Source of the DNA: Haliotis asinina
Lineage: Eukaryota; Mollusca; Gastropoda; Lepetellida; Haliotidae
NCBI RefSeq assembly: GCF_037392515.1
Contig: NC_090281.1
Location: forward strand, 47,034,645-47,098,644
Reading direction: 5' to 3'
DNA length: 64,000 bases
Both the position numbers and the translations under genes were made by a program. Below, piece by piece: positions 9,990-46,691 of this stretch; within the stretch, counting starts at the first letter, position 1, and every line of letters begins with the position of its first letter. Below the pieces are notes generated by a model. It did not search any database, was not told the origin of the DNA, and saw only the letters and a list, made by a program, of their open reading frames with translations.

Positions 9990-9994
9990 TCCCA

Positions 9995-11764: not shown

Positions 11765-11839
11765 TTTGTCTTTTGACATACAGCATGCTTTTACTCCTAT
11801 CATTTCATTGGTCTTCCAGGTAATCAAAACGCTATTTCT

Positions 11840-16504: not shown

Positions 16505-17683
16505 CAGATACAGTTTATAACATCCGATGTATTACGTTCTAAGACCACGTACATTTAAGGATAAGTAGGAGAAAGCTTCCTTTGTTTCCTTTTTGTTTCT
16601 TACTTCTACAGGCGACGGTTGCATTGCAAGCTTGTGAGATACAGTTTATAAAATCCGATGTATTACGTTCTAAGACCACGTACATTTAAGGATAAGTAGG
16701 AGAAAGCTTCCTTTGTTTCCTTTTTGTTTCTTACTTCTACAGGCGACGGTTGCATTGCAAGCTTGTGAGATACAGTTTATAAAATCCGATGTATTACGTT
16801 CTAAGACCACGTACATTTAAGGATAAGTAGGAGAAAGCTTCCTTTGTTTCCTTTTTGTTTCTTACTTCTACAGGCGACGGTTGCATTGCAAGCTTGTGAG
16901 ATACAGTTTATAAAATCCGATGTATTACGTTCTAAGACCACGTACATTTAAGGATAAGTAGGAGAAAGCTTCCTTTGTTTCCTTTTTGTTTCTTACTTCT
17001 ACAGGCGACGGTTGCATTGCAAGCTTGTGAGATACAGTTTATAAAATCCGATGTATTACGTTCTAAGACCACGTACATTTAAGGATAAGTAGGAGAAAGC
17101 TTCCTTTGTTTCCTTTTTGTTTCTTACTTCTACAGGCGACGGTTGCATTGCAAGCTTGTGAGATACAGTTTATAAAATCCGATGTATTACGTTCTAAGAC
17201 CACGTACATTTAAGGATAAGTAGGAGAAAGCTTCCTTTGTTTCCTTTTTGTTTCTTACTTCTACAGGCGACGGTTGCATTGCAAGCTTGTGAGATACAGT
17301 TTATAAAATCCGATGTATTACGTTCTAAGACCACGTACATTTAAGGATAAGTAGGAGAAAGCTTCCTTTGTTTCCTTTTTGTTTCTTACTTCTACAGGCG
17401 ACGGTTGCATTGCAAGCTTGTGAGATACAGTTTATAAAATCCGATGTATTACGTTCTAAGACCACGTACATTTAAGGATAAGTAGGAGAAAGCTTCCTTT
17501 GTTTCCTTTTTGTTTCTTACTTCTACAGGCGACGGTTGCATTGCAAGCTTGTGAGATACAGTTTATAAAATCCGATGTATTACGTTCTAAGACCACGTAC
17601 ATTTAAGGATAAGTAGGAGAAAGCTTCCTTTGTTTCCTTTTTGTTTCTTACTTCTACAGGCGACGGTTGCATTGCAAGCTTGG
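16505..17683 (+). repeat. Tandem array, 9 x 131 bp
   Basis: Nine head-to-tail units of exactly 131 bp, starting at 16505, 16636, 16767, 16898, 17029, 17160, 17291, 17422 and 17553. Units 2-9 look identical by eye; the first differs at least at two bases (c for g and c for a near its start). The unit contains on the minus strand 'LNVRGLRT'-like codons, the start of a LINE endonuclease, contiguous with the LINE remnant before it. No ORF crosses the units. Confidence 0.95.
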
Positions 17684-19520: not shown

Positions 19521-19525
19521 TGAGG
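19521..19525. repeat. Left target-site duplication TGAGG
   Basis: TGAGG directly precedes the left TIR and recurs directly after the right TIR (32759-32763). Five bases match; a sixth does not on either side. Polintons usually give 6 bp. Confidence 0.7.
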
Positions 19526-19653
19526 AGTAGTATATACAATGGGGGTTTTAAAACACTTTCAAGAAAAGTCTCTACAAAGCCTTATTTACTAAATAAGGCT
19601 TTGGTTGGGTCCTTAGCTCTTGCTACTATTACCCCTACTACTTAACGTGTGTT
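19526..19653 (+). repeat. Left terminal inverted repeat, 128 bp
   Basis: Begins AGTAGTATATACAATGGGGG and is identical over all 128 bases to the reverse complement of 32631-32758. Contains a perfect hairpin (19575-19603) and the last 16 bases of the integrase gene. Confidence 0.95.
19575..19603. other. Hairpin in left TIR
   Basis: Perfect inverted repeat with 14-base arms (CAAAGCCTTATTTA / TAAATAAGGCTTTG) around a single C. Present in the right TIR at 32681-32709. Possible integrase or terminal-protein recognition site; inference. Confidence 0.7.
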
Positions 19654-20582
19654 ACGATTAATAATTCTTCTCTTACAAACCCCCTACCCGGCCCATCCCT
19701 CAAGTAGTACAAGTTAGGTTCGTCGGCTTTTATATCCACTTTATCTATGTTGTAAGTTTTGACTGACCATATAGGATCGGTGGCCCGCTTACGGCTATCA
19801 CCCTCGTGTTCCCCCGGCTGGTATAGATACCTCACTAGGGCCCTATCTGGTATCTGTTTCTCCTTCCCACGCAATGGAGCGGCCGACTCTGCAACTATTG
19901 ATTTTAGTTTGATAGCGTCTGCCGGTTTCTTACCGGTGAGACGGGTGACTTCATGGTTGATTGCCGACACCACCTTGGGTAACCTCGTGACCCATTCAGT
20001 CGATCGTTTTCCAGGGGTGGCCATCTCCCTAGCATACTGATGGCCGAACAAGCGCTCAGCCAAAGTCCTATTAAATCTCTCAACTATGGCTTGGCTGCGA
20101 TGGGCTCCGGCCGTGCCATGCCTGACCTTTGTATCGTGTTTGGCTAGCAGTTGTGACACGGCACCCATGAACTCCCGTCCGGGGTCAACTTGCAGCTCTG
20201 TTGGCCACGTCAGCGGGCTGCGTTTGTATATGCGTTCGAATCCTCTGGCTACCTGGGCCGAATCTTTCGTGGTCAAGGGTTCGGCTTCCTTGTAACGACT
20301 GGCTACGTCCACTACGGTTAAGGCATACTTGTACCTCTTGTCGTGGGGTAGGAACAGTAGGTCTGCCTGGTGAACGCTATTAGGTATGTTAATACCGAAC
20401 CTCCTTCTAGGCACGTAGCGTGGTGCCGGCAAATAGATCTGCCACAGGGCTTGTTTTTCAAGCCACGCTTTGGCTTCCTCCGGGGGTACTCGCGCTATTT
20501 TAGCTAGCTTATCTACTGCGCTAGCTCCTTTCCAGTACCCACGCGGGCTGTAGTAAATAGCCTCAAATTTTTTCATGTCCAT
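19638..20582 (-). CDS. Retroviral-type integrase (rve, D,D-35-E)
   Basis: 314 residues. An N-terminal helical part without a clear HHCC finger (residues 1-65) precedes the RNase H-fold core. D74 lies in 'HQADLLFLP', D133 in 'LQVDPGREF' and E168 in 'AIVERFNRTL', giving D-x58-D-x34-E. A small beta-rich C-terminal domain (about 270-310, 'KVDIKADEPNLYYLRDGPGRGFVREELL') resembles the chromo/SH3-like tail of Polinton integrases. It is expected to insert the linear genome through its TIRs. The start overlaps the end of polB by 20 bases in another frame (ATG at 20582; a second Met two codons on), so it is probably co-transcribed with or read through from polB. The TAG stop at 19638 lies inside the TIR. 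All catalytic residues are intact. Confidence 0.93.
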   Translation of the reverse strand: MDMKKFEAIYYSPRGYWKGASAVDKLAKIARVPPEEAKAWLEKQALWQIYLPAPRYVPRRRFGINIPNSVHQADLLFLPHDKRYKYALTVVDVASRYKEAEPLTTKDSAQVARGFERIYKRSPLTWPTELQVDPGREFMGAVSQLLAKHDTKVRHGTAGAHRSQAIVERFNRTLAERLFGHQYAREMATPGKRSTEWVTRLPKVVSAINHEVTRLTGKKPADAIKLKSIVAESAAPLRGKEKQIPDRALVRYLYQPGEHEGDSRKRATDPIWSVKTYNIDKVDIKADEPNLYYLRDGPGRGFVREELLIVTHVK

Positions 20583-23500
20583 ACGCGTATGTGTTTATCC
20601 CATCAATAGCTATCCAACGTTTCGTGTCCATAGGCGACAGGGACGTCTTGTTTATAGTCAGTCCGTATATCTTATGTCCATCACTTCTAAGTGTGTTCAT
20701 TTTATGCCTAAAGGTACGGGTCTTGAACAGGGCTTCCTTGAATCTGGCGTGTTTGATGTGTTGTTTCACCACATACTTCTTAACCCCCTTAGCCTTCCGG
20801 ATCTCACTATTGTCGGCTTTCAGTATGGAGTACATCTTAGGTCTCAAACCTATGTACTCGGCTATGGGCGTGCCAGCACACTCGTCCTTCATCTTACCTA
20901 GGACCTTTTTATTTACCGTACTGTGTATGGTATGGGTCTTAGGGTAGTCGCTGGTGTCGTATAAATCGAGGTGTTTTTTCATGTCCTCGTACACGTCCTC
21001 GGTTTGAATCTCCATCAGCAGGGAATCCGTGTCAGTGTACAGCACTTCACACCTGTCGCCGTACTGTTTCTTGAGCTCGTTGTAGTAAAAGTCGTACATC
21101 AGGTGTTTGGATAAATCGAGGATGCTCATCCCCACGTAAACAGGCCGGTTGAATTTTATGTGGCTTTTCTTCATGTGTAGGGCAACCAGGTTGTCTGTGA
21201 ATATCTTACTACGGTTGAATGCCGGACTGGCTATCAATCTCCTGAGCTTGTCTTCCTCACTCGACCGAACCAGCTTCACGGTCACGCGTTTCCTCAGGTT
21301 CTCCATAGTCTTACCAAACACCGAGTTGTTCATGAGCTTGTAGAGATTTTTCTCAAAATCACTGGTGGCTTTTTTTCGTAGGTCTGTGTTCATTCTGATG
21401 TAGGGCTCCATCCATGGGCTCTGGTCGAACATGAGCACCCTGTGTATTTTGGTCAGCCTCATACCCAACGACAGGTACAGCTGTAGGTTGCGATAGTGAA
21501 CGATGTACTTGGTCTTATTCATTAAGTTAGGCACGAGTTTTTCAACGTCTGTCACACGCCCACCTAACAAGTTATGTTGGTACTCAGACATCCAGTCTGG
21601 GTTAACCCTCATACGTTCGGGGGCCAGGGGGTAGCTGTTGTGCGATGTGTGTAATTCCTTGGTATACTCTAAGTCAACCTCGAGGATATAACCTTTGTTC
21701 GAATCTGGTGCAACCCCCATAACATCAACGTGGGGTACCCATTCGAATCCCCCTGTAGGTAGATACTGGCTCATGGCCCAGCCGTACAGGTTGTTTGCAT
21801 CGAGGTAGAGAATGTGATTGGTTGGCTTGTTAGGATCGTAACCTTTCACGTATTGATTATTTGCTTTCGCGTATCGTTTGGATGCCATGGAAATCCCACC
21901 TCGCAAGCCTTTCTCAATGAATAGGTGCATGTCGTAATCTGTGAGCAATTCCAAATTAACTCCGGTCTTTTTAAGCAAGGCGTCCCACGACAGACCTGGG
22001 CTGGTGTAATACCATGCGGGGTCGAGTTTATACTGCTTGAAACACGTCCGCCTAAACGTCTCAAACACGTCGGCTAACAGCAGTACATCTGTCCTCAAGT
22101 ACAGGTCGTGATAATCACCCAGGTTCTTACAACCCAGTTTATTCCATACGTTAGTCGCGTGCGAGTAATCATCTCGTGAGACGGACGCCTCATTCAGCTT
22201 GCTATAAAAGCAGTCAATAGGGGGTAGTCTGGTCTCGGTGAACTTGACCCAACTATCCATGTACTCATAGGGGTACACACCCTTCCTCATAAGCAGGGGT
22301 CTAGTCTCAGCGTCTGTGTATCGATCGGTGATAGGGAAGGTATTGTTGGCCTTGACCAGACTGTCGAGTGACAACAGGAGGAACTGAAACGAGTCAATGA
22401 ACCTAAGTCCGTTTAAGCTGAAGGAGATGTATCTCTCCATGTTGTTGGGGATGCACGTTATATTACCATCGATTTTCGCGATGGCCTGCATGATCAAGTG
22501 TGAGTCGTACCCTCTCAAGTTGTGAAAGACAACGGGGATGTTTATTGTCTTAGGGTTGATTTTAAGCTTGAGGTTGCACGCGCTGTGAGCGGCGCCTCTA
22601 TACTTACCAGTTATGTGGCAGTGATCTCTCACCGAATCACCGTTAAGTGGTGAGTCACACACGTGACAGTTAGTGCTACTAGCGTGAGCTAGCCTGTTGA
22701 CTCGGGTCATACGCATGGGAGCGATTCTATACAATACATTCCTAATAATTTTTTCTTCCTCCTGCAAACATTTTAGAAACCTTTCAGCCGCGTCAGGGCC
22801 CCTATACACTACCGGAGCTTTCGTTTCCCCGTCACAACGGACGACAATGTATCCAAACCCACAGGCTTTATGCTCTTGTATGGGGGAATCCCCCACCACC
22901 AAGGCTTCGAAGTCGGCGTATATGATATAAGGCACAGACATTTGGTTCTTGTGGTTACCGAATTTTAGGATATTATCACCTTCCTTAGGCATGTCGACTC
23001 GTATGGCCGTCTGCCCCACACCTTGGCAATCATCCCGGTGGGATTCTAATAAATCAGCTCGTGTGAAGCCATGTAGGCATCGTTCACAGAAGTGGGTCTT
23101 TTCTCTGTGTGCCGATTGGTCATACAACAGCCTGCTAAAGTGTTTTATCCATGTGTAGTGATACTTGTCACCTCGCTGGATCATGAATATATTGATAACT
23201 TGGCGATCCTTCACTTCGCTGACCCTGTGTACTATTGTTGTGTTACCTTCGTGCCCAAAGACATTTATAGCCAGATTATTCTGTTTTTCTACTTTAGTGA
23301 TCTGGGATATGGGGGTGGGTTCATCTATACCATCCCAGTTGAGCCCATCATCCTGAGGATAATTAGAAGGCCTGTTCGGATTAGTGTCAGCTGGAAATAA
23401 GGCTGACCTGATAGCTAACCTCAGGCAATCGTTTCCTCTATTCTTAACGTTTACTATGGCATGTTTGTTCCTATAGTAGGGGGGCAAGGCTAGGTATGAC

Positions 23501-24243
23501 CCGCCTCTGAATGGCACGTAGTTAGCTATGTCTAGATAGACATTATCGATTTTATCTACAGCCCACCCGGACCCCAAGTGTGTGTAGCGTTCTAGGTATT
23601 CTCGTATCTGCTGAAAACTGGTATCGATTGATGCGTCAATGGTCTCTGTATGTGTGACGACCTCTTGTTTACCTCGGAAGTAAGGCTGAACATATTCAGT
23701 GGTACTCCCAACCTGCTTATCGAGCGACATTTTCACTGTGATCTGAAACTTGATACTTCCTAAGTTATTTAGTTCCTGGTTGACCTTATCAGCTATCAGA
23801 GGCTTGATATCTGTAATGTCTATGTTTCTATCAACGTGCATGCGCCAACCTCTCAAATAGTTGCCTACAGCGCGCTCAGTGCGCACGAACTGTAGGTCAG
23901 TAGCTCTATTCTGTCGTAATAATTCTACAAGCTGTGGTTTTCTCATACGGGAATACCCAGCTAAACCCAAATCGCGTGCCTCGGCTTTCAGTTGTTTTAC
24001 TGTAGGCACCACCACTGGGGTATGTGATAACAATGCGACTAACCCGGCTCTCCCCAGGTTTGAATAACCCGTGTATCCAAGCTGTTTTGCTTGAGCTTTT
24101 AATTGTTTTACCGTAGGAGGGGCTTCTAAACCTAGTAATCTCAACAATGCTGACTTCCGCATTCTAGAATACCCGATCACACCTCTCTGTTTTGCGACCC
24201 GCTTAAGGTCGCGCACAGTAGTCATAGTGTTTACACCTAACAT
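20563..24243 (-). CDS. Protein-primed-type family B DNA polymerase with SAP-like repeats and zinc/HNH module
   Basis: About 1226 residues, ATG at 24243 (the frame is open a little further). Residues ~5-115 hold three similar ~35-residue repeats ('VKQLKAQAKQLGYTGYSNLGRAGLVALL'-type), like SAP/Rho-N DNA- or RNA-binding repeats. A C2H2-like finger follows ('FCERCLHGFTRADLLESHRDDC', ~388), then Exo I 'YADFEALV' (~440), a Cys-x2-Cys...H...CH...C module like recombination endonuclease VII/HNH (~525-556, 'CHVCDSPLNGDSVRDHCHITGKYRG'), Exo II 'FHNLRGYDSH' (~570) and Exo III 'YLRTDVLLLADVFE' (~715). Polymerase motifs: A 'LYLDANNLYGWAMSQ' (~810), B 'NNSVFGKTMEN' (~970), C 'YTDTDSLLME' (~1067). This is the DNA_pol_B_2 layout used by protein-primed linear genomes. 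The frame is intact throughout. Unlike the structural genes it has no TATATA box before the start. Confidence 0.93.
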   Translation of the reverse strand: MLGVNTMTTVRDLKRVAKQRGVIGYSRMRKSALLRLLGLEAPPTVKQLKAQAKQLGYTGYSNLGRAGLVALLSHTPVVVPTVKQLKAEARDLGLAGYSRMRKPQLVELLRQNRATDLQFVRTERAVGNYLRGWRMHVDRNIDITDIKPLIADKVNQELNNLGSIKFQITVKMSLDKQVGSTTEYVQPYFRGKQEVVTHTETIDASIDTSFQQIREYLERYTHLGSGWAVDKIDNVYLDIANYVPFRGGSYLALPPYYRNKHAIVNVKNRGNDCLRLAIRSALFPADTNPNRPSNYPQDDGLNWDGIDEPTPISQITKVEKQNNLAINVFGHEGNTTIVHRVSEVKDRQVINIFMIQRGDKYHYTWIKHFSRLLYDQSAHREKTHFCERCLHGFTRADLLESHRDDCQGVGQTAIRVDMPKEGDNILKFGNHKNQMSVPYIIYADFEALVVGDSPIQEHKACGFGYIVVRCDGETKAPVVYRGPDAAERFLKCLQEEEKIIRNVLYRIAPMRMTRVNRLAHASSTNCHVCDSPLNGDSVRDHCHITGKYRGAAHSACNLKLKINPKTINIPVVFHNLRGYDSHLIMQAIAKIDGNITCIPNNMERYISFSLNGLRFIDSFQFLLLSLDSLVKANNTFPITDRYTDAETRPLLMRKGVYPYEYMDSWVKFTETRLPPIDCFYSKLNEASVSRDDYSHATNVWNKLGCKNLGDYHDLYLRTDVLLLADVFETFRRTCFKQYKLDPAWYYTSPGLSWDALLKKTGVNLELLTDYDMHLFIEKGLRGGISMASKRYAKANNQYVKGYDPNKPTNHILYLDANNLYGWAMSQYLPTGGFEWVPHVDVMGVAPDSNKGYILEVDLEYTKELHTSHNSYPLAPERMRVNPDWMSEYQHNLLGGRVTDVEKLVPNLMNKTKYIVHYRNLQLYLSLGMRLTKIHRVLMFDQSPWMEPYIRMNTDLRKKATSDFEKNLYKLMNNSVFGKTMENLRKRVTVKLVRSSEEDKLRRLIASPAFNRSKIFTDNLVALHMKKSHIKFNRPVYVGMSILDLSKHLMYDFYYNELKKQYGDRCEVLYTDTDSLLMEIQTEDVYEDMKKHLDLYDTSDYPKTHTIHSTVNKKVLGKMKDECAGTPIAEYIGLRPKMYSILKADNSEIRKAKGVKKYVVKQHIKHARFKEALFKTRTFRHKMNTLRSDGHKIYGLTINKTSLSPMDTKRWIAIDGINTYAYGHEKI

Positions 24244-24294
24244 AACCAATGTCTAATTGGGTCACAGTAAAGGGAGGTAACCCTTGATAAACAT

Positions 24295-24558
24295 TTATTT
24301 GGAGTCTATCTTGAGCAGTCGCCTACGTTCTTTTATGTAGTCCTTTTTATTCTCGTAGATGAGTTGATGTCTGACTACGTTCGCTCCGTGAGCTTTACAT
24401 AGACAGTAGTGTCCTTTAACCCCGATACCACACACAGAACACGTGTAGTTAGGACTTCCCATATGGAAACAACAGAACCCCTGATTCCTGCATTTCCTAC
24501 CACAGGCCTCGGTCTTCCCCATAAGTATGTATTCGCATCGGTATGGAGCGGGTCTCAT
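24295..24558 (-). CDS. Small Cys-rich zinc-binding protein
   Basis: 87 residues with Cys/His groups suggesting two zinc sites: 'CEYILMGKTEACGRKCRNQGFCCFH' and 'CSVCGIGVKGHYCLCKAHG'. The C-terminal 30 residues are basic and helical ('KKDYIKERRRLLKI'). The ATG at 24558 follows 'tatataagtaaac' on the minus strand, the promoter-like box seen before most genes of the element. Lies 51 bp before polB on the same strand. Function unknown; a regulatory nucleic-acid-binding role is a guess from its composition. Confidence 0.65.
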   Translation of the reverse strand: MRPAPYRCEYILMGKTEACGRKCRNQGFCCFHMGSPNYTCSVCGIGVKGHYCLCKAHGANVVRHQLIYENKKDYIKERRRLLKIDSK

Positions 24559-24576
24559 GTTTACTTATATAGGTAT

Positions 24577-25002
24577 TTAATTTAATTGCTTCGCAACCAA
24601 CGCAGTAGCTGCTATGCCCAACACTATGAAGCCCAGTTCACGATTCATTTGTCCCTTGGATGGTGTGTAGTACTGAGCGAGTGTGGGTTTATTGAGCGGT
24701 TCCAATCGTTTACCAGTTAGTAGGTAGTATTCTTTCATTGCTTCATCGACATCGTTGAATGTTTGAACGGCATGGTTTTCACGCTGGAGTTGTTCGTTAA
24801 TAAAATCGATCCTCTGGAGGCGTTTTTTAGCGTACTCGGCCTGTGCCTTTTGTAAGTTCTCAGTAGCGAGATCGTGCCGCTTCCTTCCTTCCTGTATTTC
24901 AGCCGCGTGATCATCTCGTAGTTTCGAGAAGAGGAAATTACTCCCGGAAAATGCCAGGGCATTCACTAACGCCCCACCGACCATCATAGCTATCGTGGCC
25001 AT
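24577..25002 (-). CDS. Membrane protein with central coiled coil, 141 aa
   Basis: Starts at ATG 25002. Residues 1-25 form a small-residue-rich hydrophobic segment ('MATIAMMVGGALVNALAFSGSNFLF'), residues ~28-90 a charged coiled coil ('DDHAAEIQEGRKRHDLATENLQKAQAEYAKKRLQ'), and the last ~20 residues a second hydrophobic helix ('LGFIVLGIAATALVAK'). Separated by 18 bp from the next gene downstream and 7 bp from the one upstream. AT-rich 'aaataaatatagg' precedes the ATG. This layout suits a virion inner-membrane or minor capsid-associated protein; inference only. Confidence 0.6.
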   Translation of the reverse strand: MATIAMMVGGALVNALAFSGSNFLFSKLRDDHAAEIQEGRKRHDLATENLQKAQAEYAKKRLQRIDFINEQLQRENHAVQTFNDVDEAMKEYYLLTGKRLEPLNKPTLAQYYTPSKGQMNRELGFIVLGIAATALVAKQLN

Positions 25003-25009
25003 CCTATAT

Positions 25010-25237
25010 TTATTTCATTATATTATCAGGTATTATCCCTTGTTTTACTAGGATGTCTTTTGTGGCCATCGCCATACCAAGGTTCATTATGAGCATACCC
25101 ATATCCTGCAGGTTGAAATCTAGCTTGATAGTTGGTTGTTTAAGCACCATTTTAGTCAACCGAGCGTACCCTACTGCTAGACTGGCGACCACTGTGGCGT
25201 GGTATGCGTCGTTGACGAACGTTTTCCCCTCAGACAT
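25010..25237 (-). CDS. Small hydrophobic protein, 75 aa
   Basis: Contains a hydrophobic stretch at residues ~12-32 ('YHATVVASLAVGYARLTKMVL') and another at ~47-62 ('MGMLIMNLGMAMATKDILV'). The ATG at 25237 follows a clear 'tttttatatatacata' box. Its end is 7 bp before the next gene. Likely a small membrane or virion-associated protein; no family recognised. Confidence 0.6.
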   Translation of the reverse strand: MSEGKTFVNDAYHATVVASLAVGYARLTKMVLKQPTIKLDFNLQDMGMLIMNLGMAMATKDILVKQGIIPDNIMK

Positions 25238-25262
25238 TATGTATATATAAAAATATTTTAAA

Positions 25263-25607
25263 TTATAACATGATATGCGGGTCGACAGTGGGGGTTACCT
25301 CACTGTTGGGGGGTACCACCACGTTTCCCCCACGTCCCTCACGTGTATATAACCACGAGATAGCCAAGGCAGCAGTTACGCCTACAGCCAACAACAGTCG
25401 GGTTTGGTTGGTCACTGTAATAATTTTATGTTGGTTACACCACCGTTTTTTACCGGCAGCAACTCTCTTAGGATTCTTCTGTCTGGTTACTGTTGGGGTC
25501 ACTTCCCCCACTGGTTCCCTGGTCTCCTGTGAAGGGGTCACTTCCCTCACTGTTGGGGGTGTGGGGGGTACCCCCACTGGGGTTTCCTCCTCCTCCCTGG
25601 CATCCAT
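25263..25607 (-). CDS. Pro/Thr-rich single-span membrane protein, 114 aa
   Basis: The N-terminal ~45 residues are Pro/Thr/Glu-rich ('PVGVPPTPPTVREVTPSQETREPVGE'), then a basic patch ('RQKNPKRVAAGKKRW') and one transmembrane helix ('LLLAVGVTAALAISWLY', ~72-88), with a short polar tail. It overlaps the end of the 198-aa gene by 140 bp in a different frame; both proteins are low-complexity in the overlap. Plausible because the overlap keeps both frames open and every other gap here is filled, but it could be a shadow in its first half. Confidence 0.5.
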   Translation of the reverse strand: MDAREEEETPVGVPPTPPTVREVTPSQETREPVGEVTPTVTRQKNPKRVAAGKKRWCNQHKIITVTNQTRLLLAVGVTAALAISWLYTREGRGGNVVVPPNSEVTPTVDPHIML

Positions 25608-26061
25608 CTATACTATTATTATTATTTTTTCTCTCAAATTGACAATGCTTTGCCGTGATAATCGCCGCCGTCACTGAAGCCAACAACATACCATATTTGT
25701 GGTACAGCCCGCAGCTGATAGAACTCACGGCGTGTTCGATAAAAGGGTCTTTCTCGAGGTCCTCCCACAGGTAAAGTCGGCGCTCTGGTGGAATGGGAAG
25801 GAAGTATGATACAATACCGGTGTATATCTGGGTCATAGCCGATCCTATTGTCTTTGTCATTTCTGCTCCGAGCCGGGACTCGTATCTAGCGTACAGCTTA
25901 TCGATTTCTTCGACTGACATTTTGTGAATTTTATCCGGAGTGTAGTCTCCAAAGTAATGTTTGGCTTTGCCGCCAACAGCCAACGCCACCAGTTTCTCTC
26001 GCTTATCATCAGTGGGGGAACCCTCCACCAACAATTGTTCGAGCAATTCCTCACACTCCAT
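25468..26061 (-). CDS. Conserved element protein with Gly/Ser-rich tail, 198 aa
   Basis: The ATG at 26061 is chosen because a 'tatattataag' box lies directly before it and acidic 'MECEELLEQLLVEGSP' looks like a natural N-terminus; the frame is open to 26169. The body includes 'KAKHYFGDYTPDKIHKMSVEEIDKLYARYESRLGAEM', 'SYFLPIPPERRLYLWEDLEKDPFIEHAVSS' and a hydrophobic helix 'LYHKYGMLLASVTAAIITAKH'. The last 50 residues are a Gly/Ser/Thr/Pro tail. From memory such proteins accompany the capsid and polymerase genes of similar invertebrate elements; I cannot verify this. Function unknown. Confidence 0.65.
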   Translation of the reverse strand: MECEELLEQLLVEGSPTDDKREKLVALAVGGKAKHYFGDYTPDKIHKMSVEEIDKLYARYESRLGAEMTKTIGSAMTQIYTGIVSYFLPIPPERRLYLWEDLEKDPFIEHAVSSISCGLYHKYGMLLASVTAAIITAKHCQFERKNNNNSIDGCQGGGGNPSGGTPHTPNSEGSDPFTGDQGTSGGSDPNSNQTEES

Positions 26062-26177
26062 CTTATAATATAACAAGTAAGATTTAGTTTTAACTATATA
26101 ATACCCGATGCAGAAAAAACACAGAGAAATGAAGGTTAAGTTGCACACGACAAACACTTCAAATATCATAGCTATAC

Positions 26178-26239
26178 TTAGCTTTAGCTTAGCTTTGCTT
26201 AGCTTTGCTTAGCTTTGCTTAGCTTTGCTTAGCTTTAGC
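26178..26239. repeat. Decanucleotide minisatellite at the capsid gene end
   Basis: About six copies of a 10-bp unit (TTAGCTTTGC and variants) lie between the capsid gene and the 198-aa gene. The last Cys codon and stop of the capsid frame are inside its first unit. Confidence 0.9.
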
Positions 26240-27182
26240 ACACCCTATATGCTACTGGTTGGTCGGTCTTGAGCACGAGCTTAGCGTGTTTAGTTTCAGC
26301 GAGCTTGAAAAACTTCTCGCTGTCCCTCCGGAATGGCTCGTAATCCTCCACGGGGACGACCAGGATACCTTTCATCGATCGCGCCGGCACGTTCAGGTTG
26401 ATATTCCACACAGTGTCGCTCTTATCTCGCACGACTGATCTATGCCTCAGTACGCGATCGTACAGGATAGCCATCTTCCCAGAGTACTGGCTTCGAACCT
26501 GCCTGGCCAGCTCCGGGCTAGTGACCATGTTGAACTCCAGAGAGATGTTGTCTATGGCATAACTGGCCTCATCACCATTCGGCGTACGCACTACTTTGCT
26601 ATAGTCGTTAAACGTGAGCTCGTATTCGAGCCTATCACCCAGCGCGGCCTGGTAAAACGGCGCGTGTCCCATGAGCAACTCGAAGTCGAGCGGCACGCAG
26701 AATCGATTCCCGTATGCTCGAGCGATGGCCTTTTCACCGTCCGATAGCTTGTCTAGCTGGTCTGTCGTGAAGGCATACCCTATGCGCGACCGGGTTGATT
26801 TGCTGATGCCCTGATACACATCATTGACTCGTTCTCCCTCGCTTTTCCAGAGATCCCCGTAGCAGTGAAACACGTCGCTGTCGTCGATGCTCAGCACCTC
26901 GTTACCGCTGATCTTGACGGTCGTTTTCTTGATGATAGCTCGACCCACGTTCCGCACTAGCTCGCGTTTGTCGTTGTCGGAGGTCAACGTGATATTGAAC
27001 GCCAGTCGAACAGTGCCTGGTACAATAAGGTCATTCTCACCAAGGTTTGGAAATCTAACCAGCAGAGTTTGATTCTGGTCTATCTTGCTGGGATTGTTGG
27101 TGATGGTCACCGACTGGCGCACGGCTCTGGCGCCTAGTGGCTCTCTCAATCTTCTGAAAGGATCTAATTTTCTACCGTACAT
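26235..27182 (-). CDS. Candidate major capsid protein (double jelly-roll type), possibly 3'-truncated
   Basis: 315 residues, beta-rich and with no transmembrane helix. Typical stretches are 'LLVRFPNLGENDLIVPGTVRLAFNITL' (~40-67), 'NRFCVPLDFELLMGHAPFYQ' (~158-178), 'LGDRLEYELTFNDYSKVV' (~180-198), 'YAIDNISLEFNMVTSPELA' and 'NINLNVPARSMKGILVVPVEDYEPF'. The 'PLDFELLM...P...' pattern, beta-strand rhythm and genome position suggest the structural protein that forms capsomers; this is family-level inference without profile evidence. ATG at 27182 with a 'catttatataaca' box, divergent from the 27215 gene 32 bp away. At 315 residues it is short for a double jelly-roll (commonly over 400), and its stop lies in a minisatellite, so the C-terminal end may be lost. 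Confidence 0.55.
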   Translation of the reverse strand: MYGRKLDPFRRLREPLGARAVRQSVTITNNPSKIDQNQTLLVRFPNLGENDLIVPGTVRLAFNITLTSDNDKRELVRNVGRAIIKKTTVKISGNEVLSIDDSDVFHCYGDLWKSEGERVNDVYQGISKSTRSRIGYAFTTDQLDKLSDGEKAIARAYGNRFCVPLDFELLMGHAPFYQAALGDRLEYELTFNDYSKVVRTPNGDEASYAIDNISLEFNMVTSPELARQVRSQYSGKMAILYDRVLRHRSVVRDKSDTVWNINLNVPARSMKGILVVPVEDYEPFRRDSEKFFKLAETKHAKLVLKTDQPVAYRVC

Positions 27183-27214
27183 TGTTATATAAATGAAATA
27201 TATTTTTAATACTA
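27183..27214. promoter_or_regulatory. Divergent promoter between capsid and 27215 gene
   Basis: 32 bp of A/T containing 'ttatataa' (leftward gene) and 'aaatatattttt' (rightward gene), each within 25 bases of its ATG. There is no room for anything else. Confidence 0.6.
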
Positions 27215-27754
27215 ATGGCTGAAGACATACCTATGGATGATATGTGGGACGATAGTGCCCAGGCATTCAATGATGACCAGGAGACCTCATTCTCGCTAGA
27301 TGACAAACTCATTAATAACGCCGTCGACGGTTATTATGACGCAGTTGAAAATAGAGACAACATCAAGCCGTGGGGGCGAGACTATACCAAGTTTTTTGTT
27401 GATACGGATGGCACGCTGCGTTTGAAGGCTCACCCGGATATCGATCTCATGCATCAAAACAAGAGAGAACCGCTTGCCTTATCAACATTGAAAGGTAAAT
27501 ATAAAATTAAGTTTGTCCAAAAGGAACTAGGTTTCAGAGATTACGGTGGCGCGCGACCTAAGCTTCCTCCGAAGTTAGTTCAAAGTCTGGAAGGCATCAG
27601 GGACGCCCCATCGGATCAAAACATGACTTATGATATTAAAAAAGTGTTGACCAACTACGGGAACAAGCCCTTCCCGGGTCTCGAAATTACCCGAAATTCA
27701 TACACATCGCCTATGAAAAGAAAAAACTCGGTGAAACTGAGGACGAGTCTATGA
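27215..27754 (+). CDS. N-terminal part of a split structural-type protein
   Basis: 179 codons. Very acidic start ('MAEDIPMDDMWDDSAQAFNDDQE'), then 'NIKPWGRDYTKFFVDTDGTLRLKAHPDIDLMHQNKREPLALSTL' and 'LGFRDYGGARPKLPPKLVQSLEG'. The last ~20 codons look out of frame. In the +2 frame, which is that of the following ORF, a charged helical stretch is readable from about 27690 into the next gene. The two ORFs therefore appear to be one gene broken by a small indel near 27660-27690, or joined by frameshifting. The element's second rightward promoter-like box precedes the ATG. Confidence 0.6.
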   Translation: MAEDIPMDDMWDDSAQAFNDDQETSFSLDDKLINNAVDGYYDAVENRDNIKPWGRDYTKFFVDTDGTLRLKAHPDIDLMHQNKREPLALSTLKGKYKIKFVQKELGFRDYGGARPKLPPKLVQSLEGIRDAPSDQNMTYDIKKVLTNYGNKPFPGLEITRNSYTSPMKRKNSVKLRTSL

Positions 27755-28281
27755 AAGCCACCATCGAGGAACGAATACGTAATTTGGAAGATGAAAGGCA
27801 GACCTGGTTGGAGACAGCGTCCGGCTACAAAGAAAAGCTTAGATCCCAGGTCAGCCGTGTGCGGGAAACCATCAATCAAGTCCTCCACCGAGACACCACG
27901 TTAGCAGACAGGATTCGGATTTTGTTCCGGGAGCAAGGGATCACCATCGCCAGCATTCTGACTGCATTGGGTTTCATCATATCAACCTTGGTGGTGTCAC
28001 TGACAGGGGGTACTGTGGGGCCTGCCGGCGGCGGAGTTCCCCCCACACCTGCCGGCGGCGGCGGTGGTGTTAAAGACTGGATAAAAAAACTCGGGGAACG
28101 CCTAGCTAAACTGGCTGGTAAAGCCACCGAAGCCCTTCCCGGTATCCTGGGTAGCATCGTCTCGTGGTTGTTGGGCGCTCTGGCTAAAACTGCCACGTGG
28201 TTCAGTCAAAACCTGTGGGCAGCCATCGTCGCCGTGGCGGGTCTGGTGTACGTAGCGGCTAAGAAATTTTTAACCAAATAA
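27751..28281 (+). CDS. C-terminal part of the split protein: coiled coil and membrane/amphipathic helices
   Basis: 176 codons from ATG 27751, overlapping the previous stop by four bases, but probably the continuation of the 27215 gene. A coiled coil ('EERIRNLEDERQTWLETASGYKEKLRSQVSRVRET') leads into 'LADRIRILFREQGITIASILTALGFIISTLVV' (hydrophobic helix ~65-90), a Gly/Pro linker, 'VKDWIKKLGERLAKLAGKATEALPGILGSIVSWLLGALAKTATWF' and a last helix 'LWAAIVAVAGLVYVAAK'. I recall similar proteins in other invertebrates' repetitive elements (unverified). Architecture suggests membrane-active virion protein; inference. Confidence 0.65.
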   Translation: MKATIEERIRNLEDERQTWLETASGYKEKLRSQVSRVRETINQVLHRDTTLADRIRILFREQGITIASILTALGFIISTLVVSLTGGTVGPAGGGVPPTPAGGGGGVKDWIKKLGERLAKLAGKATEALPGILGSIVSWLLGALAKTATWFSQNLWAAIVAVAGLVYVAAKKFLTK

Positions 28282-28468
28282 GCCCCAAAGCTACCCCACC
28301 AACCACCAGGGCCGTTTTATTATCGATGTGATTGGAGGCCTGAATATGGGTGTGTGTGGGGGGTACCTCCACATGAACTTTAGACTCCGGGGGTGGCGCC
28401 ACTATACCCGTTTCACGTGGTGGAATGTGTGGGATATAGGGGGCGTTAATATCGGGGTTGATACCCAA
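28259..28468 (-). CDS. Small Pro-rich single-span membrane protein, start unclear
   Basis: 69 codons with a Pro-rich N-part ('APYIPHIPPRETGIVAPPPESKVHVEVPPTHTH') and a C-terminal transmembrane helix ('ALVVGGVALGLIWLKI'), the same layout as the 114-aa protein at 25263. No ATG exists in frame before a stop at about 28534; the frame is open upstream into the palindrome at 28504, so the true start may have been lost when the palindrome formed. Overlaps the convergent gene's end by 23 bp. Confidence 0.45.
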   Translation of the reverse strand: MGINPDINAPYIPHIPPRETGIVAPPPESKVHVEVPPTHTHIQASNHIDNKTALVVGGVALGLIWLKIS

Positions 28469-28502
28469 CTTTTGATCCGCCGTGGCTATGACTATTTTGT
28501 TG

Positions 28503-29651
28503 TTAAAGATGACAAGAATTGTTATGGATGATCAACTTCTTTATTGCAGGGTAGCGACGTTTCAGTATAGATTCGAATCTATACCGAAACGTCGCTACCC
28601 TGCAATAAAGAAGTTGATCATCCATAAAAATTCTTGTCATCTTTATCTCAGCAACTTCTAGAATGCCTCTCAAACAGTTTATTTTGTTGTTATAACCCAC
28701 CACTTTTTTTACTCTCAGTTGCATATCACTCGGAGCCATGTACAGCCCCACGCCGAACACGTAATTGACTTTCGATCTGGCGTATTCTAACACGTTTTGG
28801 TAACGGTCGATGGCCCGCGGGAGATCAACTGGAGAATTGATAGCATCCTCAACGTTGGCAACGAACTGTTTCTGAGCGTCATAAGCAGTTCCCTTACCGA
28901 TGATGTTGGAACGCGTCATCGACTGCGCACCCAACAGCGCCCACACGTACGTTTGAATCGAGTCGTTCAACCTGACTACCCCGGCATGAGTGAATCCTTT
29001 CGACGTGTCCAGCATGAACATTTTCCACCCGTCTGTGGTTGACTGCTCCACTTTCTGGACTGTGAAAGCAACCCCACCTTTAAAGTTCATACGATCATCC
29101 CTCCATTCATTACTCGACAAAGCAAAGTCCTGGCGTAGTATATCTCGTTTCAGTAAATCATCACTGACTTCTTTCACTGGTCGCCCCCCATCATAAGGAA
29201 TACCCAACCCGTGGTTCGGGCCCTGCAAACGCCAATCCGTCTTCGGGTTTATTTCGAATTCATTGCAAATACGTTCGTAGGCCCGTCTATTGTACGGGTT
29301 GTTTGTTGCGTCCCACGCTTTGTCCTGTGGGAGGGGGGCGCTGATCTCTTTAAGGATACGTCTGACCTGGTAGTACACGTGGAACTTGAACACAGACTGA
29401 CTCAGCGGTCCACGCTGAGTGTCGGTCAATGTCACACCACACCCCGTTGTAGCGCACCACACGGCAAAGTTGAATTGATTCTGCCAGAACTGCATAGGGT
29501 TGTTGAACCAAGCGTGGACTGCCTTGACGTTAGTCACCGAAAGCTTATACTTATCGAACACATCTAAAAGCTGGGCATTGAAATACAACCCAGGAGCAAC
29601 CACGATCTTCATGGGGGAGAAATCTACGTCCAGTTTAGGGTAAAACAACAT
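28503..29651 (-). CDS. Conserved element protein, 382 aa, unknown role
   Basis: ATG at 29651 chosen because 'cattatataatagttttaaa' lies immediately before it; the frame is open a further 26 codons upstream but would overlap the divergent gene. Soluble, aromatic-rich protein: 'AVHAWFNNPMQFWQNQFNFAVWCATTGCGV', 'NNPYNRRAYERICNEFEINPKTDWRLQGPNHGLGIPYDGG', 'FTHAGVVRLNDSIQTYVWALLGAQ', 'AINSPVDLPRAIDRYQNVLEYARSKVNYVFGVGLYMAPSD'. No motif of an ATPase or protease is present. A structural or assembly role is possible from its place opposite the jelly-roll gene. Its last ~47 codons are inside a 142-bp palindrome, so the C-terminus is probably altered in this copy. Confidence 0.65.
   Translation of the reverse strand: MLFYPKLDVDFSPMKIVVAPGLYFNAQLLDVFDKYKLSVTNVKAVHAWFNNPMQFWQNQFNFAVWCATTGCGVTLTDTQRGPLSQSVFKFHVYYQVRRILKEISAPLPQDKAWDATNNPYNRRAYERICNEFEINPKTDWRLQGPNHGLGIPYDGGRPVKEVSDDLLKRDILRQDFALSSNEWRDDRMNFKGGVAFTVQKVEQSTTDGWKMFMLDTSKGFTHAGVVRLNDSIQTYVWALLGAQSMTRSNIIGKGTAYDAQKQFVANVEDAINSPVDLPRAIDRYQNVLEYARSKVNYVFGVGLYMAPSDMQLRVKKVVGYNNKINCLRGILEVAEIKMTRIFMDDQLLYCRVATFRYRFESILKRRYPAIKKLIIHNNSCHL
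28504..28645. repeat. 142-bp palindrome (71-bp arms, no spacer)
   Basis: Arms 28504-28574 and 28575-28645 are reverse complements with two mismatches (28521/28628 and 28564/28585). The centre is TTCGAA. It sits at the junction between the rightward 27215-28281 unit and the leftward 382-aa gene. Could be a fold-back duplication, an origin/resolution structure, a terminator for convergent genes or an assembly artefact. Confidence 0.9.
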
Positions 29652-29688
29652 TTTAAAACTATTATATAATGAGCATATATACTCTAAC
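29652..29688. promoter_or_regulatory. Divergent promoter between 382-aa gene and jelly-roll gene
   Basis: 37 bp containing 'attatataat' close to the leftward ATG and 'catatatactctaac' just before the rightward ATG. Confidence 0.6.
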
Positions 29689-30342
29689 ATGTACATAACA
29701 CTTCCAGGAATAACGAGCGGTGAGGCCATTCAGCTGACGCACGCGATCGATAACACGTCAGGCCAACTCGAAGTCGCACTCTGCGATATCACCTACCTAC
29801 CGCAATGGACTAACATCAACGCCAGCAACAATAAGCTGTTCGTCAGTGGGGCTCGCAGTCAGATAACTGACGGCTACTACAGCGTGTGCTCTCTAAACGA
29901 CGAGGTCTTCAAACCCCTGGGAGCCGAACTCAAGATGAACGACTCAAACGGCACAGTGGTGTTAATCAACAACGGAAGAACCTCCTTGAGGCTCGGCCGA
30001 CCATTAGCGAGGATACTCGGTATGTCTCCTGACGAGATAAAACCAACAACAACCGTCACAGGTACGAAGTTACCCGGCCTAGTACCGTACCGAGAGCTGT
30101 ACATTCATCTCGGTCAGGTGAGCACAACGTACAACATTCAAGGAGGTCACCCTTCCACTATACTGAGAGCAGTGCCGGTGAAAACTGAGAAATACAACGA
30201 CGGTAGAACCGAGTCGTTTTCACCACGGCAGTATAAGAGATTAACCCAGGGCAACATACCTGAGCTGATAATATCGGTGTTAGATATAAATCATAATCCT
30301 GTAAATATAGGATACCTCAGCTTAACGCTTCATGTAAAATGA
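29689..30342 (+). CDS. Candidate small jelly-roll (penton-like/minor capsid) protein
   Basis: 217 residues, beta-rich, no membrane helix. It begins 'MYITLPGITSGEAIQLTHAID', has 'LEVALCDITYLPQWTNI' (~27-43) and ends 'ELIISVLDINHNPVNIGYLSLTLHVK', a terminal strand pattern seen in small capsid proteins of Polinton-like elements (my recollection, unverified). ATG 29689 follows a TATATA-type box. Its stop overlaps the next ATG (ATGA at 30339-30342), indicating an operon-like readthrough or a compact mRNA. If correct, it would fill the vertices of the capsid. Confidence 0.5.
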   Translation: MYITLPGITSGEAIQLTHAIDNTSGQLEVALCDITYLPQWTNINASNNKLFVSGARSQITDGYYSVCSLNDEVFKPLGAELKMNDSNGTVVLINNGRTSLRLGRPLARILGMSPDEIKPTTTVTGTKLPGLVPYRELYIHLGQVSTTYNIQGGHPSTILRAVPVKTEKYNDGRTESFSPRQYKRLTQGNIPELIISVLDINHNPVNIGYLSLTLHVK

Positions 30343-31010
30343 CCAGCGCACAAGGGCCCGGAGTGAAAAAATGCGTCAATATCGGGATCTCCGACCTCGG
30401 AGACACGCGCGGTTTCGACGCTCCCGGAGTAGATGGTAAATCGTACGCCTTGCAACTGAAAAACAACATTTACAAACGCGTTGAAGTCCCCTCCGGTGGA
30501 ACCCTAAGTGATATAGTAGATACCACAAGAGCAACAGTCAACACTAAGTACGCCCTTGTCAACACCGGTGATAACTGGATAATATACCCATCGTTCGGGG
30601 GTAAACTGTTCGACTTAGATGATGTTGAGAGCACTACCGTCACCCGAAACAAGCCATATATACTCGTCTTCACCGAAGATGACAAGTGGGTGTTGTTACC
30701 CGATAACGACTGGTTTCTCAATATTAGGCTCGGCTCCCCCTACGTGTTTACTGATAACAAAGACAACCACCTAAACAAAGTCGTGAACAATGGAACCCTG
30801 CTCGTGGCTTATGTCCCAACTCAGAGACGTAGCGTAGTCGTCAGCCCACTCAACACTATGGCAGCCCACATGCTATCGAGTAAACTGACCATACAAAACG
30901 TGACATTGCAGTTGGTGTCTGAATTCGAAGGCGTGGTCAAGATACTAGAGTCTACCGGCAAACTCAACACTGATCATCAAAGTCTACCTAGGGGAACCAT
31001 CGGGGAATGA
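30339..31010 (+). CDS. Fibre/lectin-like protein 1, frame broken near its 3' third
   Basis: 223 codons. It opens with 'CVNIGISDLGDTRGFDAPGVDGKSYALQLKNNIYKRVEVP', a motif repeated in the gene at 31256 ('LGDTEGFDQPGEEDELYILHFKDNVYRRVPLP'), followed by a second region shared with that gene (from 'WFLNIRLGSPYVFTDNKDNHLNKVVNNG'). Its continuation, in the next frame, ends like the second protein. I therefore read it as the first of two tandem paralogues with a small indel between about 30950 and 30985. The shared C-terminal pattern recalls LamG/ConA-like beta-sandwiches, suggesting a surface attachment or fibre protein; inference. Confidence 0.6.
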   Translation: MTSAQGPGVKKCVNIGISDLGDTRGFDAPGVDGKSYALQLKNNIYKRVEVPSGGTLSDIVDTTRATVNTKYALVNTGDNWIIYPSFGGKLFDLDDVESTTVTRNKPYILVFTEDDKWVLLPDNDWFLNIRLGSPYVFTDNKDNHLNKVVNNGTLLVAYVPTQRRSVVVSPLNTMAAHMLSSKLTIQNVTLQLVSEFEGVVKILESTGKLNTDHQSLPRGTIGE

Positions 31011-31245
31011 TGTCGAGATCGTGAAGGGGATCAAACTCGGGTGGGTGAAACGACACCAGTATCAAGTTTGCAACGTTTACGTGCGGGTGGGTGTTGGAGC
31101 CGACACCAGTCTGGTGGGGGTCAACGTGATCGTGGAAAACAAGATATCACTAACCAAGATCTTCCTGTCTGACAACATACACTTCATGGGTATGAAGTTC
31201 ACCCCTGAATTATTATCAAAAAACCAGTTGGAAATTATATCGTAA
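31011..31245 (+). pseudogene. Out-of-frame 3' part of fibre/lectin-like protein 1
   Basis: The frame, open from about 30954, matches the C-terminal third of the 31256 paralogue by pattern and ends '...FTPELLSKNQLEIIS' against '...FINRLLTETQLKYLS'. There is no ATG in frame before 31189, so it is not a separate gene. Confidence 0.55.
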
Positions 31246-31255
31246 TAGTATAATA

Positions 31256-31942
31256 ATGACCAGTCATCCCAACACTACGCTTAACGACCTAGGAGATACG
31301 GAGGGATTCGATCAGCCTGGTGAGGAAGATGAATTATACATCCTGCACTTCAAAGACAACGTGTACAGACGGGTGCCGTTACCAGATTTAAAAGAGCCCA
31401 AATGGCTGATCAACTTAACATTCACCTCACCTTATATCACAATAGACGCAGATACAGGGGGATATATCTCTAAGATTAGGAATAACGGTATCTGGCCCGG
31501 GGATTTCACTCCGGAGAGTGAATTACACATGATAACTATTGGTATCGAAAAAAATAGGTTAAAGTCTGTACCAAAAAATAAATTAACATTTAGCAATAAT
31601 CCTTATAGTATATATCTTGATAGAATATTAGTCCCTTTCACACTCATCATAGAAGTCTTCTTTTATTTAGACAATGAAAACACCTCAAGAGTACACCAAA
31701 TTTTACCCGGGGTGTCAATACACTGGTTTGACGAACACCGAGACCAATATTGTCGTATTGTTATACAACAGGATACCCCCGCGGGTCCTATAAACCGCTT
31801 AATAAGCCTCAGTGGGGTTTTTATTACAACAGGAAATTCTATTAGACTCTCACCTATTACCCTGACTAATAGTCTAGATCTTGTAGACTTCAAATTCATT
31901 AATAGACTATTAACTGAAACCCAATTAAAATATCTTTCATAA
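31256..31942 (+). CDS. Fibre/lectin-like protein 2 (paralogue of 30339 gene)
   Basis: 228 residues, intact. Shares with its neighbour the N-terminal 'LGDTEGFDQPGEEDELYILHFKDNVYRR' module, a central 'FTSPYITIDADTGGYISKIRNNG' stretch and a beta-rich C-terminal half ending 'DFKFINRLLTETQLKYLS', which resembles the closing strand/helix of LamG/ConA-like domains. It lacks the ~60-residue insert of the first copy. The ATG follows 'atagtataata'. No signal peptide or membrane helix, as expected for a virion fibre. Base composition is more A/T-rich than in the first copy. Confidence 0.65.
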   Translation: MTSHPNTTLNDLGDTEGFDQPGEEDELYILHFKDNVYRRVPLPDLKEPKWLINLTFTSPYITIDADTGGYISKIRNNGIWPGDFTPESELHMITIGIEKNRLKSVPKNKLTFSNNPYSIYLDRILVPFTLIIEVFFYLDNENTSRVHQILPGVSIHWFDEHRDQYCRIVIQQDTPAGPINRLISLSGVFITTGNSIRLSPITLTNSLDLVDFKFINRLLTETQLKYLS

Positions 31943-31955
31943 TATATATTATAGG

Positions 31956-32573
31956 ATGGGCCTGTACCCAGGCGTAGATGAAGTAGCGAAGACGCTGGAA
32001 ACCGTAGATGGGTTCCGCTTGAGGCAGTTATGTGACGTGAAACGCCAACTAGAACAAGACCGTGACACGCGGAAAGCACTATATAAAAAGTACCATAGAG
32101 CTTTCAATATCTTGGACGGGGCTGACACTACCCTTATGACAACCAGCATGGGACTAGGGGCGGCAGGTGTTGGATTGTTAGCTACCATCGTGGCTACACC
32201 TATAGTGCTAGGTATTGAAATAACAGCTGGGGTGGCAGGGTTGGCAGGCTTGGCACTTAAGTTGATATCACGCAGACTGCATCGTAAGGCATTGAAACAC
32301 GACGAGATCAGGATTCTGGCCGAAGCAAAGCTCAACACAGTAAGTGGGCGTATTTCCACGGCACTCTCTGATAGTAAGATCTCAGAAGAGGAGTTTCGTT
32401 CAATCCTCTCTGAACTCACAAAATATAACGGAATGAAACAAGATATTCGGTCCAAGTCTCGTAAGTCTGCTATCAGCGAGGACGAGAAAAAAAAGTACAT
32501 AGAACAGGGGATACAAAAAGCCCAGCAAGCCTTTATTACAAACACCAAAGAGATCATAGGCGGTTCACGTTAA
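31956..32573 (+). CDS. Membrane-associated helical protein, 205 aa
   Basis: The ATG at 31990-type positions further in are possible, but 31956 follows the box 'aatatatattatagg' directly. N-terminal coiled coil ('LRQLCDVKRQLEQDRDTRKALYKKYHRAFNIL'), a glycine-rich hydrophobic hairpin (~62-98, 'MGLGAAGVGLLATIVATPIVLGIEITAGVAGLAGLAL'), then a long charged helical region ('KHDEIRILAEAKLNTVSGRISTALSDSKISEEEFRSILSEL'). I recall this family as repeated in other invertebrate genomes, consistent with mobile spread; unverified. Last gene before the right TIR, 57 bp away. Role unknown, perhaps membrane penetration or a virion inner membrane. Confidence 0.65.
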   Translation: MGLYPGVDEVAKTLETVDGFRLRQLCDVKRQLEQDRDTRKALYKKYHRAFNILDGADTTLMTTSMGLGAAGVGLLATIVATPIVLGIEITAGVAGLAGLALKLISRRLHRKALKHDEIRILAEAKLNTVSGRISTALSDSKISEEEFRSILSELTKYNGMKQDIRSKSRKSAISEDEKKKYIEQGIQKAQQAFITNTKEIIGGSR

Positions 32574-32630
32574 ACTGTTTCATCGATATAAACGTGTATT
32601 GATCGTACCGTACGGCACAGTGTTACCTCC

Positions 32631-32758
32631 AACACACGTTAAGTAGTAGGGGTAATAGTAGCAAGAGCTAAGGACCCAACCAAAGCCTTATTTAGTAAAT
32701 AAGGCTTTGTAGAGACTTTTCTTGAAAGTGTTTTAAAACCCCCATTGTATATACTACT
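32631..32758 (-). repeat. Right terminal inverted repeat, 128 bp
   Basis: Exact reverse complement of 19526-19653, including the 14-base-arm hairpin at 32681-32709. Ends ...ATATACTACT followed by TGAGG. Confidence 0.95.
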
Positions 32759-32763
32759 TGAGG
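32759..32763. repeat. Right target-site duplication TGAGG
   Basis: Matches 19521-19525. The adjacent sixth bases differ (a on the left outer side, t on the right). Confidence 0.7.
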
Positions 32764-46575: not shown

Positions 46576-46691
46576 AGAGAGACTGCTTTTTTTATAAAGT
46601 TTAACGCCAGTATTAGATGTCCTAAGATGTCACAATTGCACGTTCCTATCCGCTATCGAAAATGTGTATAGAGATAAACACTGTGTTACAG

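Follow-up and report, generated by a model that had tools for sequence, protein, structure and literature searches.

The window, i.e. the whole stretch of 64,000 nucleotides of Haliotis asinina DNA that was analysed, contains at positions 19526-32758 a real virus-like mobile element bounded by terminal inverted repeats (TIRs), referred to below as the window copy. Its inverted arms of 128 nt each are 100 % complementary, and the perfect TIRs, the 5-bp flanking repeat and the tightly packed gene set described in the initial annotation were all recovered. That annotation had also regarded the element as complete, which does not hold: the window copy carries a deletion across the capsid and ATPase genes, and further open reading frames (ORFs) are broken or shortened. 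The features are as follows.

19521-19525, no strand: left target-site duplication, TGAGG, 5 bp, flanking direct repeat
19526-19653, plus strand: left TIR, 128 bp, beginning AGTAGTATATAC
19638-20582, minus strand: rve-type integrase, 314 aa, open (Pfam PF00665, E 7.9e-11)
20563-24243, minus strand: family B DNA polymerase (PolB), 1226 aa, open (polymerase motifs, homologs with PF03175)
24295-24558, minus strand: Cys/His-rich ORF, 87 aa, present in 3/4 other left halves
24577-25002, minus strand: ORF with hydrophobic ends, 141 aa, full length in 3/4 other left halves
25263-26169, minus strand: overlapping ORFs of 114 and 233 aa; copy L010 has a single 292-aa frame in their place
26235-27182, minus strand: capsid-ATPase fusion ORF, 315 aa, from comparison with other copies
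26304-26306, no strand: deletion junction, where the window copy lacks 911-928 bp that other copies have
27215-28281, plus strand: coiled-coil and hydrophobic protein, split into 179 and 176 aa; 380 aa in copy L016
28503-29729, minus strand: conserved protein, 386 aa in L016; C-terminal part with hydrophobic tail cut off here
28506-28679, no strand: 174-bp insertion, absent from 7/7 copies, interrupting the C-terminus of the 28503-29729 gene
29689-30342, plus strand: 217-aa ORF, presumed penton candidate
30339-31010, plus strand: 223-aa ORF, cut short here; 3/4 other right halves have the whole ORF of 301-303 aa
31256-31942, plus strand: 228-aa ORF
31956-32573, plus strand: 205-aa ORF with central hydrophobic segment, full length in 1/4 other right halves and shorter in 3
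32631-32758, minus strand: right TIR, 128 bp
32759-32763, no strand: right target-site duplication, TGAGG, 5 bp, flanking direct repeat

The element belongs to a large family. The target duplication is 5 bp in 7/7 copies tested (the window copy and 6/6 others). The best 40 of 1641 TIR candidates found genome-wide were scored and all 40 were 100 % identical, perfect pairs lying 11-14 kb apart. The capsid gene occurs in at least 126 copies in the same genome, 98-100 % identical, this number being that of the copies scored (window copy included), a minority of the 3859 first-look candidates.

The integrase carries catalytic residues D74, D133 and E168. The initial annotation of a D,D-35-E enzyme is therefore right as to the type, but the spacing is 34 residues and not 35. 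No chromodomain was matched by Pfam in the window copy at E up to 1. The family B polymerase assigned initially is borne out by its motifs (YADFE at 442, DTDS at 1071) and by its relatives, many of which have DNA_pol_B_2 (PF03175), the window ORF itself giving no match to this model. Its N-terminus contains Rho_N/SAP-like repeats, followed by an OTU-like region with C273 and H362 (conserved in 117/119 and 120/121 homologs, respectively) and an Endonuclease_7-like stretch at residues 512-559.

Gene set of the family and the protease question

Fuller copies encode an integrase, a Polinton-type PolB, an A32-type packaging ATPase and a 418-aa capsid protein of the giant-virus-like double-jelly-roll type, besides some nine other proteins. 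The ATPase, 210 aa in length, matches Pfam Pox_A32 (PF04665) above cut-off. For the capsid protein, the structural model (mean pLDDT 54.8) gave its best matches with double-jelly-roll proteins of giant viruses and poxviruses; these matches were mutually consistent but of low confidence, with Foldseek TM-scores against viral models of about 0.3-0.5 for the best rows. Searching the PDB by sequence gave no useful match for any of four proteins (capsid, ATPase, 217-aa and 386-aa), no relatives were confirmed in IMG/VR and GTDB genome scans, and none were found in phage records.

Regarding maturation, no adenovirus-like protease was detected with Pfam, PHROGs and NCBIfam in the ORFs of the window copy or in those scanned from fuller copies. 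Of the absence of both ATPase and protease noted initially, the protease half stands in part, as far as an adenovirus-like enzyme in the scanned ORFs is concerned, while the ATPase is missing through deletion in the window copy and present in all 40 other copies sampled. It is also qualified by PolB, which keeps the Cys/His pair of an OTU-like protease domain. According to PMC4028283, such an adenovirus-like protease is identifiable in 74 % of 72 Polintons.

A possible reading, though less likely than not, is that the family is a branch of Polinton-like animal viruses without an adenovirus-like maturation protease, combining a double-jelly-roll capsid of giant-virus/poxvirus type, an A32 motor and a 5-bp stagger, and recently amplified to more than 100 near-identical copies in one animal genome. 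If so, maturation would be either dispensable or carried out by an unrecognised enzyme, e.g. the 386-aa protein with conserved His and Cys residues. Rather unlikely, in our estimation, is a family whose maturation protease is too divergent to be detected, residing for instance in this 386-aa protein or in the OTU-like domain of PolB. The former, for which the L016 version has 691 homologs, keeps H98, H113 and C151 in 91/91 sequences and H400 in 90/90, but no peptidase family appears among the Pfam families listed for the 91 members (25 of 26). As for the latter, the conservation of the PolB pair would fit an OTU-like protease domain, and PMC11071308 describes Polinton polymerases as having OTU-like domains in which Cys and His are conserved; the role proposed there, however, is release of the terminal protein and not capsid maturation.

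Deletion across the capsid and ATPase genes

In the 315-aa ORF, the capsid protein (418 aa when whole) is kept for roughly its first 290 residues and then runs in frame into the C-terminus of the ATPase. The 125 other scored capsid copies align to it up to residues 293-298 only, and the deletion junction was seen in none of the 48 stretches examined. ATPase sequence lies directly downstream of the capsid gene in 40/40 other copies sampled in the same genome, with the Walker A motif kept in 37 of them, which answers in the negative the question raised initially of whether an ATPase is missing from all copies. Full-length relatives with an ATPase at the place deleted here, the observation named beforehand as speaking against an ATPase-less lineage, are thus present. 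The possibility that the capsid protein of the window copy is short by nature was rejected, since its tail is ATPase sequence and most of the 120 relatives listed are about 420-440 aa long.

Within the window copy, the six frames hold no G-x4-GK[S/T], in line with the initial observation that no frame has a Walker A motif, and no ATPase family was found among the ORFs scanned. One relaxed Walker-like match, APGVDGKS at 30420 inside the 223-aa ORF, is taken for a chance match. The packaging motor seems absent because its gene has been deleted from this copy, and of the two alternatives offered initially, a deletion derivative is supported as far as the ATPase is concerned.

We class the window copy as a Polinton-like element damaged by deletion and belonging to a variant that has recently been amplified. 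More precisely, one member of a high-copy family of Polinton-like endogenous viruses or transposons almost certainly lies in the window, inserted recently and with internal deletions. We regard as very improbable that it represents a non-autonomous derivative amplified in trans, as internally deleted DNA transposons are. Its ends, integrase frame and polymerase frame are intact, a shortened copy (L011) lacking about 1.45 kb including the polymerase N-terminus exists, and in one case a pair of perfect TIRs encloses about 11 kb, all of which would suit such a derivative. Nevertheless, the fused tail is reached by 0 of the 125 other scored capsid copies (a minority of the 3859 candidates) and the junction recurs in 0/48 stretches, so that the derivative bears no sign of having multiplied. 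The other initial alternative, a separate lineage of animal elements that encode a capsid and package DNA without an ATPase, agrees with the lack of motif and ATPase family in the window copy but is rejected as next to impossible together with its different packaging mode, given the ATPase in 40/40 sampled copies, none of them sharing the junction, and the ATPase stub left in the window copy.

This removes a false lead, as there is no animal element packaging DNA without a motor here, and underlines that no gene should be declared missing on the strength of a single integrated copy until its sister copies have been compared.

Proposed life cycle and relation to known elements

In the cycle that we envisage for the family, the polymerase would copy linear DNA starting at the inverted ends, probably by protein priming, the capsid protein and ATPase would, in their predicted roles, package this DNA into particles, and the integrase would insert the element with a 5-bp stagger. 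A single deletion, with a join showing at most one base of homology, removed the C-terminal part of the capsid protein along with almost all of the ATPase gene. As both are lost, the window copy should make neither capsid nor motor, and could at most be moved in trans. PolB is broken in 4/4 other left halves compared, so there is no sign of any copy being active now. In a pN/pS comparison restricted to open frames, single-copy changes amounted to 40.5 nonsynonymous vs 28.5 and shared changes to 14.5 vs 16.5; the nonsynonymous excess among the former indicates that single copies decay.

Like Polintons/Mavericks, the family carries both an rve integrase and a family B polymerase between TIRs that lie 11-14 kb apart, with an A32/FtsK-type packaging ATPase (all 40 sampled copies; a stub only in the window copy), an OTU-like Cys/His pair in the polymerase and a double-jelly-roll capsid predicted from a low-confidence model. 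It differs in its 5-bp target duplication, that of Polintons being 6 bp (PMC10045372), in having no detected adenovirus-like protease, and in a capsid protein of only 418 aa, for which the best structural matches of the model are proteins of giant viruses and poxviruses. With poxvirus A32 ATPases it shares the PF04665 match, whereas its own enzyme is 210 aa long and carried by an integrated element. Adintoviruses have a packaging ATPase, as does the family. They are further alike in their animal hosts, the OTU-like N-terminal domain of the polymerase (putative in the family) and the rve integrase, by which PMC11071296 defines them; no adenain-type protease was detected in the family ORFs scanned, and the Pfam scan of the window copy gave no match for the C-terminal chromodomain of an adintovirus integrase. 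Meldvirus Meld23486, compared by description only, combines a Polinton-type polymerase and an integrase with a poxvirus-like hexon (Buck et al. 2024, PMC11071296), i.e. a predicted D13-like capsid, a combination that the family may share. Apart from PMC11071296, no paper listed in the literature searches describes this element family as judged by title and abstract opening, which is not proof of absence.

The remaining interest lies in the family itself, a small, high-copy animal element joining a polymerase-integrase module to a giant-virus-like capsid and an A32 motor, with 5-bp target duplications and no detected maturation protease. It bears on the exchange of virion modules among Polintons, poxviruses and giant viruses.

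Other open reading frames

The 292-aa frame is also split in two frames in 3/4 other copies, and we therefore did not conclude that its split represents damage. The ORF pair 27215-27754/27751-28281 forms a single gene (374-380 aa) in 3/4 other copies and is split here by a deletion; where 7/7 copies have 90 bp, the window copy has about 11 bp (27692-27702). The 174-bp insertion is largely a palindrome of 71+71 bp (28504-28645) flanked by 13-bp direct repeats. The 217-aa ORF, without family or PDB match, we take as a candidate for the single-jelly-roll penton protein of Polintons from its N-terminal pattern only. The 228-aa ORF is distantly similar (24-25 %) to the preceding 223-aa ORF, which suggests a tandem pair of related proteins.

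Boundaries, gene content and target duplication

The element at 19526-32758 belongs to a high-copy, Polinton-like family that combines a putative giant-virus-like capsid with an A32 motor and duplicates 5 bp of its target; no adenovirus-like protease was detected in it. As described in the initial annotation, perfect inverted repeats of 128 bp bound the element, a 5-bp direct repeat (TGAGG) flanks it and an integrase is encoded; inverted repeats of this perfection around such genes would be far beyond chance. G+C content is 45-50% across 20001-31000 and mostly 32-44% outside the element. From the left, the following features were identified:

Leftmost gene, rve integrase (PF00665, E 7.9e-11), frame open
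Next gene, family B polymerase, 1226 aa, frame open over 1226 codons in the window copy
Between polymerase and capsid-related ORF, several small ORFs
26235-27182, capsid-related ORF, 315 aa
Right side of the element, further ORFs, none with a family match that passed a cut-off

Two overlapping ORFs occupy 25263-26169 in the window and in three of four other copies of the family in the same genome, and a single 292-aa frame is found in L010, a piece of another copy; the pair may represent either two genes or one gene with a frameshift.

Target duplications of 5 bp were found in the window copy and in 6/6 other copies, i.e. all the perfect-repeat pairs 10-15 kb apart in the terminal-repeat listing. 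The duplication differs in these seven copies from the 6 bp stated as characteristic of Polintons in PMC10045372. The 40 terminal repeats scored (best 40 of 1641 candidates) were identical across 128 bp. Because both ends are identical in seven copies, the repeats point to a probably recent insertion.

Loss of the packaging ATPase in the window copy

A search at E ≤ 0.001 gave 1389 homologs of the 315-aa ORF, and most of the 120 listed are about 420-440 aa long. The ORF tracks them to about residue 290, then diverges to sequence from the ATPase end. Its tail matches the ATPase terminus of a Mytilus gene model (P0032) in which capsid and ATPase are fused, and the capsid of another homolog, P0012, reads on into a Walker A motif. 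Among the same-genome copies, L005 has ATPase sequence, split over two frames, after a capsid ORF of 418 aa, and L010 contains an unbroken 210-aa ATPase (GQTGCGKT and LFILDDC; Pfam Pox_A32, E 1.5e-8) whose C-terminal residues are those closing the window ORF. Projection on five loci from four copies placed the loss of 911 to 928 bp at window position 26305, where the joint shows no more than one base of homology.

No G-x4-GK[S/T] occurs in any frame of the window element and the single relaxed Walker A-type match lies inside a 223-aa ORF, in agreement with the absence reported initially. This absence had been tentatively ascribed either to a lineage with a different packaging mode or to a deletion. 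Since the sampled same-genome copies carry the ATPase after the capsid, the former was rejected and the latter, as regards the ATPase, was borne out for the window copy.

Searching the 1.14-Gb assembly (159 contigs) revealed at least 126 capsid copies; all 126 scored, out of 3859 candidates, were 98-100% identical across residues 1-293 or more, and among them residues 299-315 were matched by the window copy only. The stretch downstream of the capsid was surveyed in 40 of the other 125 scored copies (table rows 2 to 45 minus four copies studied as longer pieces, i.e. the best-scoring rows and not a random sample). ATPase sequence spanned 200 or more of the 210 residues in 39 of them and 198 in the remaining one; Walker A was exact in 37, a single frame was open from Walker A to the C-terminus in 31, and the window's deletion junction was found in none of the 40. 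Four further copies (L002/L010 and L005/L009, each a pair of pieces, L011 and L012) retained the full ATPase length, with Walker A altered in L005/L009 and the frame broken in L012. Pooled pN/pS, calculated on open frames only, was 0.20 for the 31 such frames (465 pairs). Changes common to several copies (14.5 nonsynonymous vs 16.5 synonymous) and those in single copies (40.5 vs 28.5) fit a gene that would have been needed during family spread and would decay after insertion.

Protease

In line with the reported lack of a recognisable protease, no convincing peptidase match was obtained with Pfam, PHROGs and NCBIfam for the ORFs scanned from the window or fuller copies. The gene order of the window was matched by halves taken from different copies (four left, four right); no room for a protease gene was seen in these copies, which were read as halves rather than end to end. 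Within the halves, ATPase stretch aside, no unmatched part exceeded about 0.6 kb; L015 and L016 hold the largest of them, the variable N-terminal portion of the 386-aa gene. Protease absence alone is not unheard of among Polintons, since PMC4028283 gives a protease in 74% of 72 Polintons (ATPase in 83%). Polymerase residues C273 (conserved in 117/119) and H362 (120/121) would fit the OTU-like domain, a cysteine protease, that Polinton polymerases are described as carrying and that is proposed to release the terminal protein (PMC11071308). His and Cys residues are strictly conserved in the 386-aa family.

Decay of individual copies and surroundings

At 27692-27702 the window has about 11 bp vs 90 bp in 7/7 copies (L002-L008), within a gene that forms one frame of 374-380 aa in three of four right halves. 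Conversely, 174 bp at 28506-28679 are a window insertion absent from the same 7/7 copies, mostly a 71+71 palindrome between 13-bp direct repeats, which removes the C-terminus of the window's 386-aa-type protein (28503-29729, minus strand); a hydrophobic tail is present in 86/91 relatives of this protein. The palindrome (28504-28645) is near-perfect, 71+71 bp without spacer, and a 27-bp part of it is found again outside the element, at 57175-57200 and L009:287-312. The 386-aa-type gene is whole in only one of four right halves. The 223-aa ORF of the window is a shortened 301-303-aa frame, whole in three of four. The polymerase frame, open in the window, is broken in all four other left halves. 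The integrase frame of the window is open as well. Copies thus decay individually and the window copy is not special in being damaged.

L011 (G000:C2:44605200-44614200) is a shortened copy from which about 1.45 kb is gone, including the polymerase N-terminus and the 87-aa gene; it retains identical terminal repeats and an undamaged 5-bp duplication. L014 (G000:C8:39102000-39111000) is a rearranged copy end holding integrase and polymerase pieces, with a 599-aa ORF joining surface-protein and polymerase sequence; terminal inverted repeats close by suggest that copies adjoin each other or are nested here.

Retrotransposon ORFs (reverse transcriptase, RNase H) lie on either side of the element, at 9827-14579 and 36188-39418, the latter with an additional endonuclease. 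Nine tandem 131-bp units with 99% matches span 16501-17682. Tandem units of 201 bp make up most of the coding sequence of a long ankyrin-repeat ORF (46598-48289, 563 aa); the window start (25-827) holds a similar array, also of 201-bp units.
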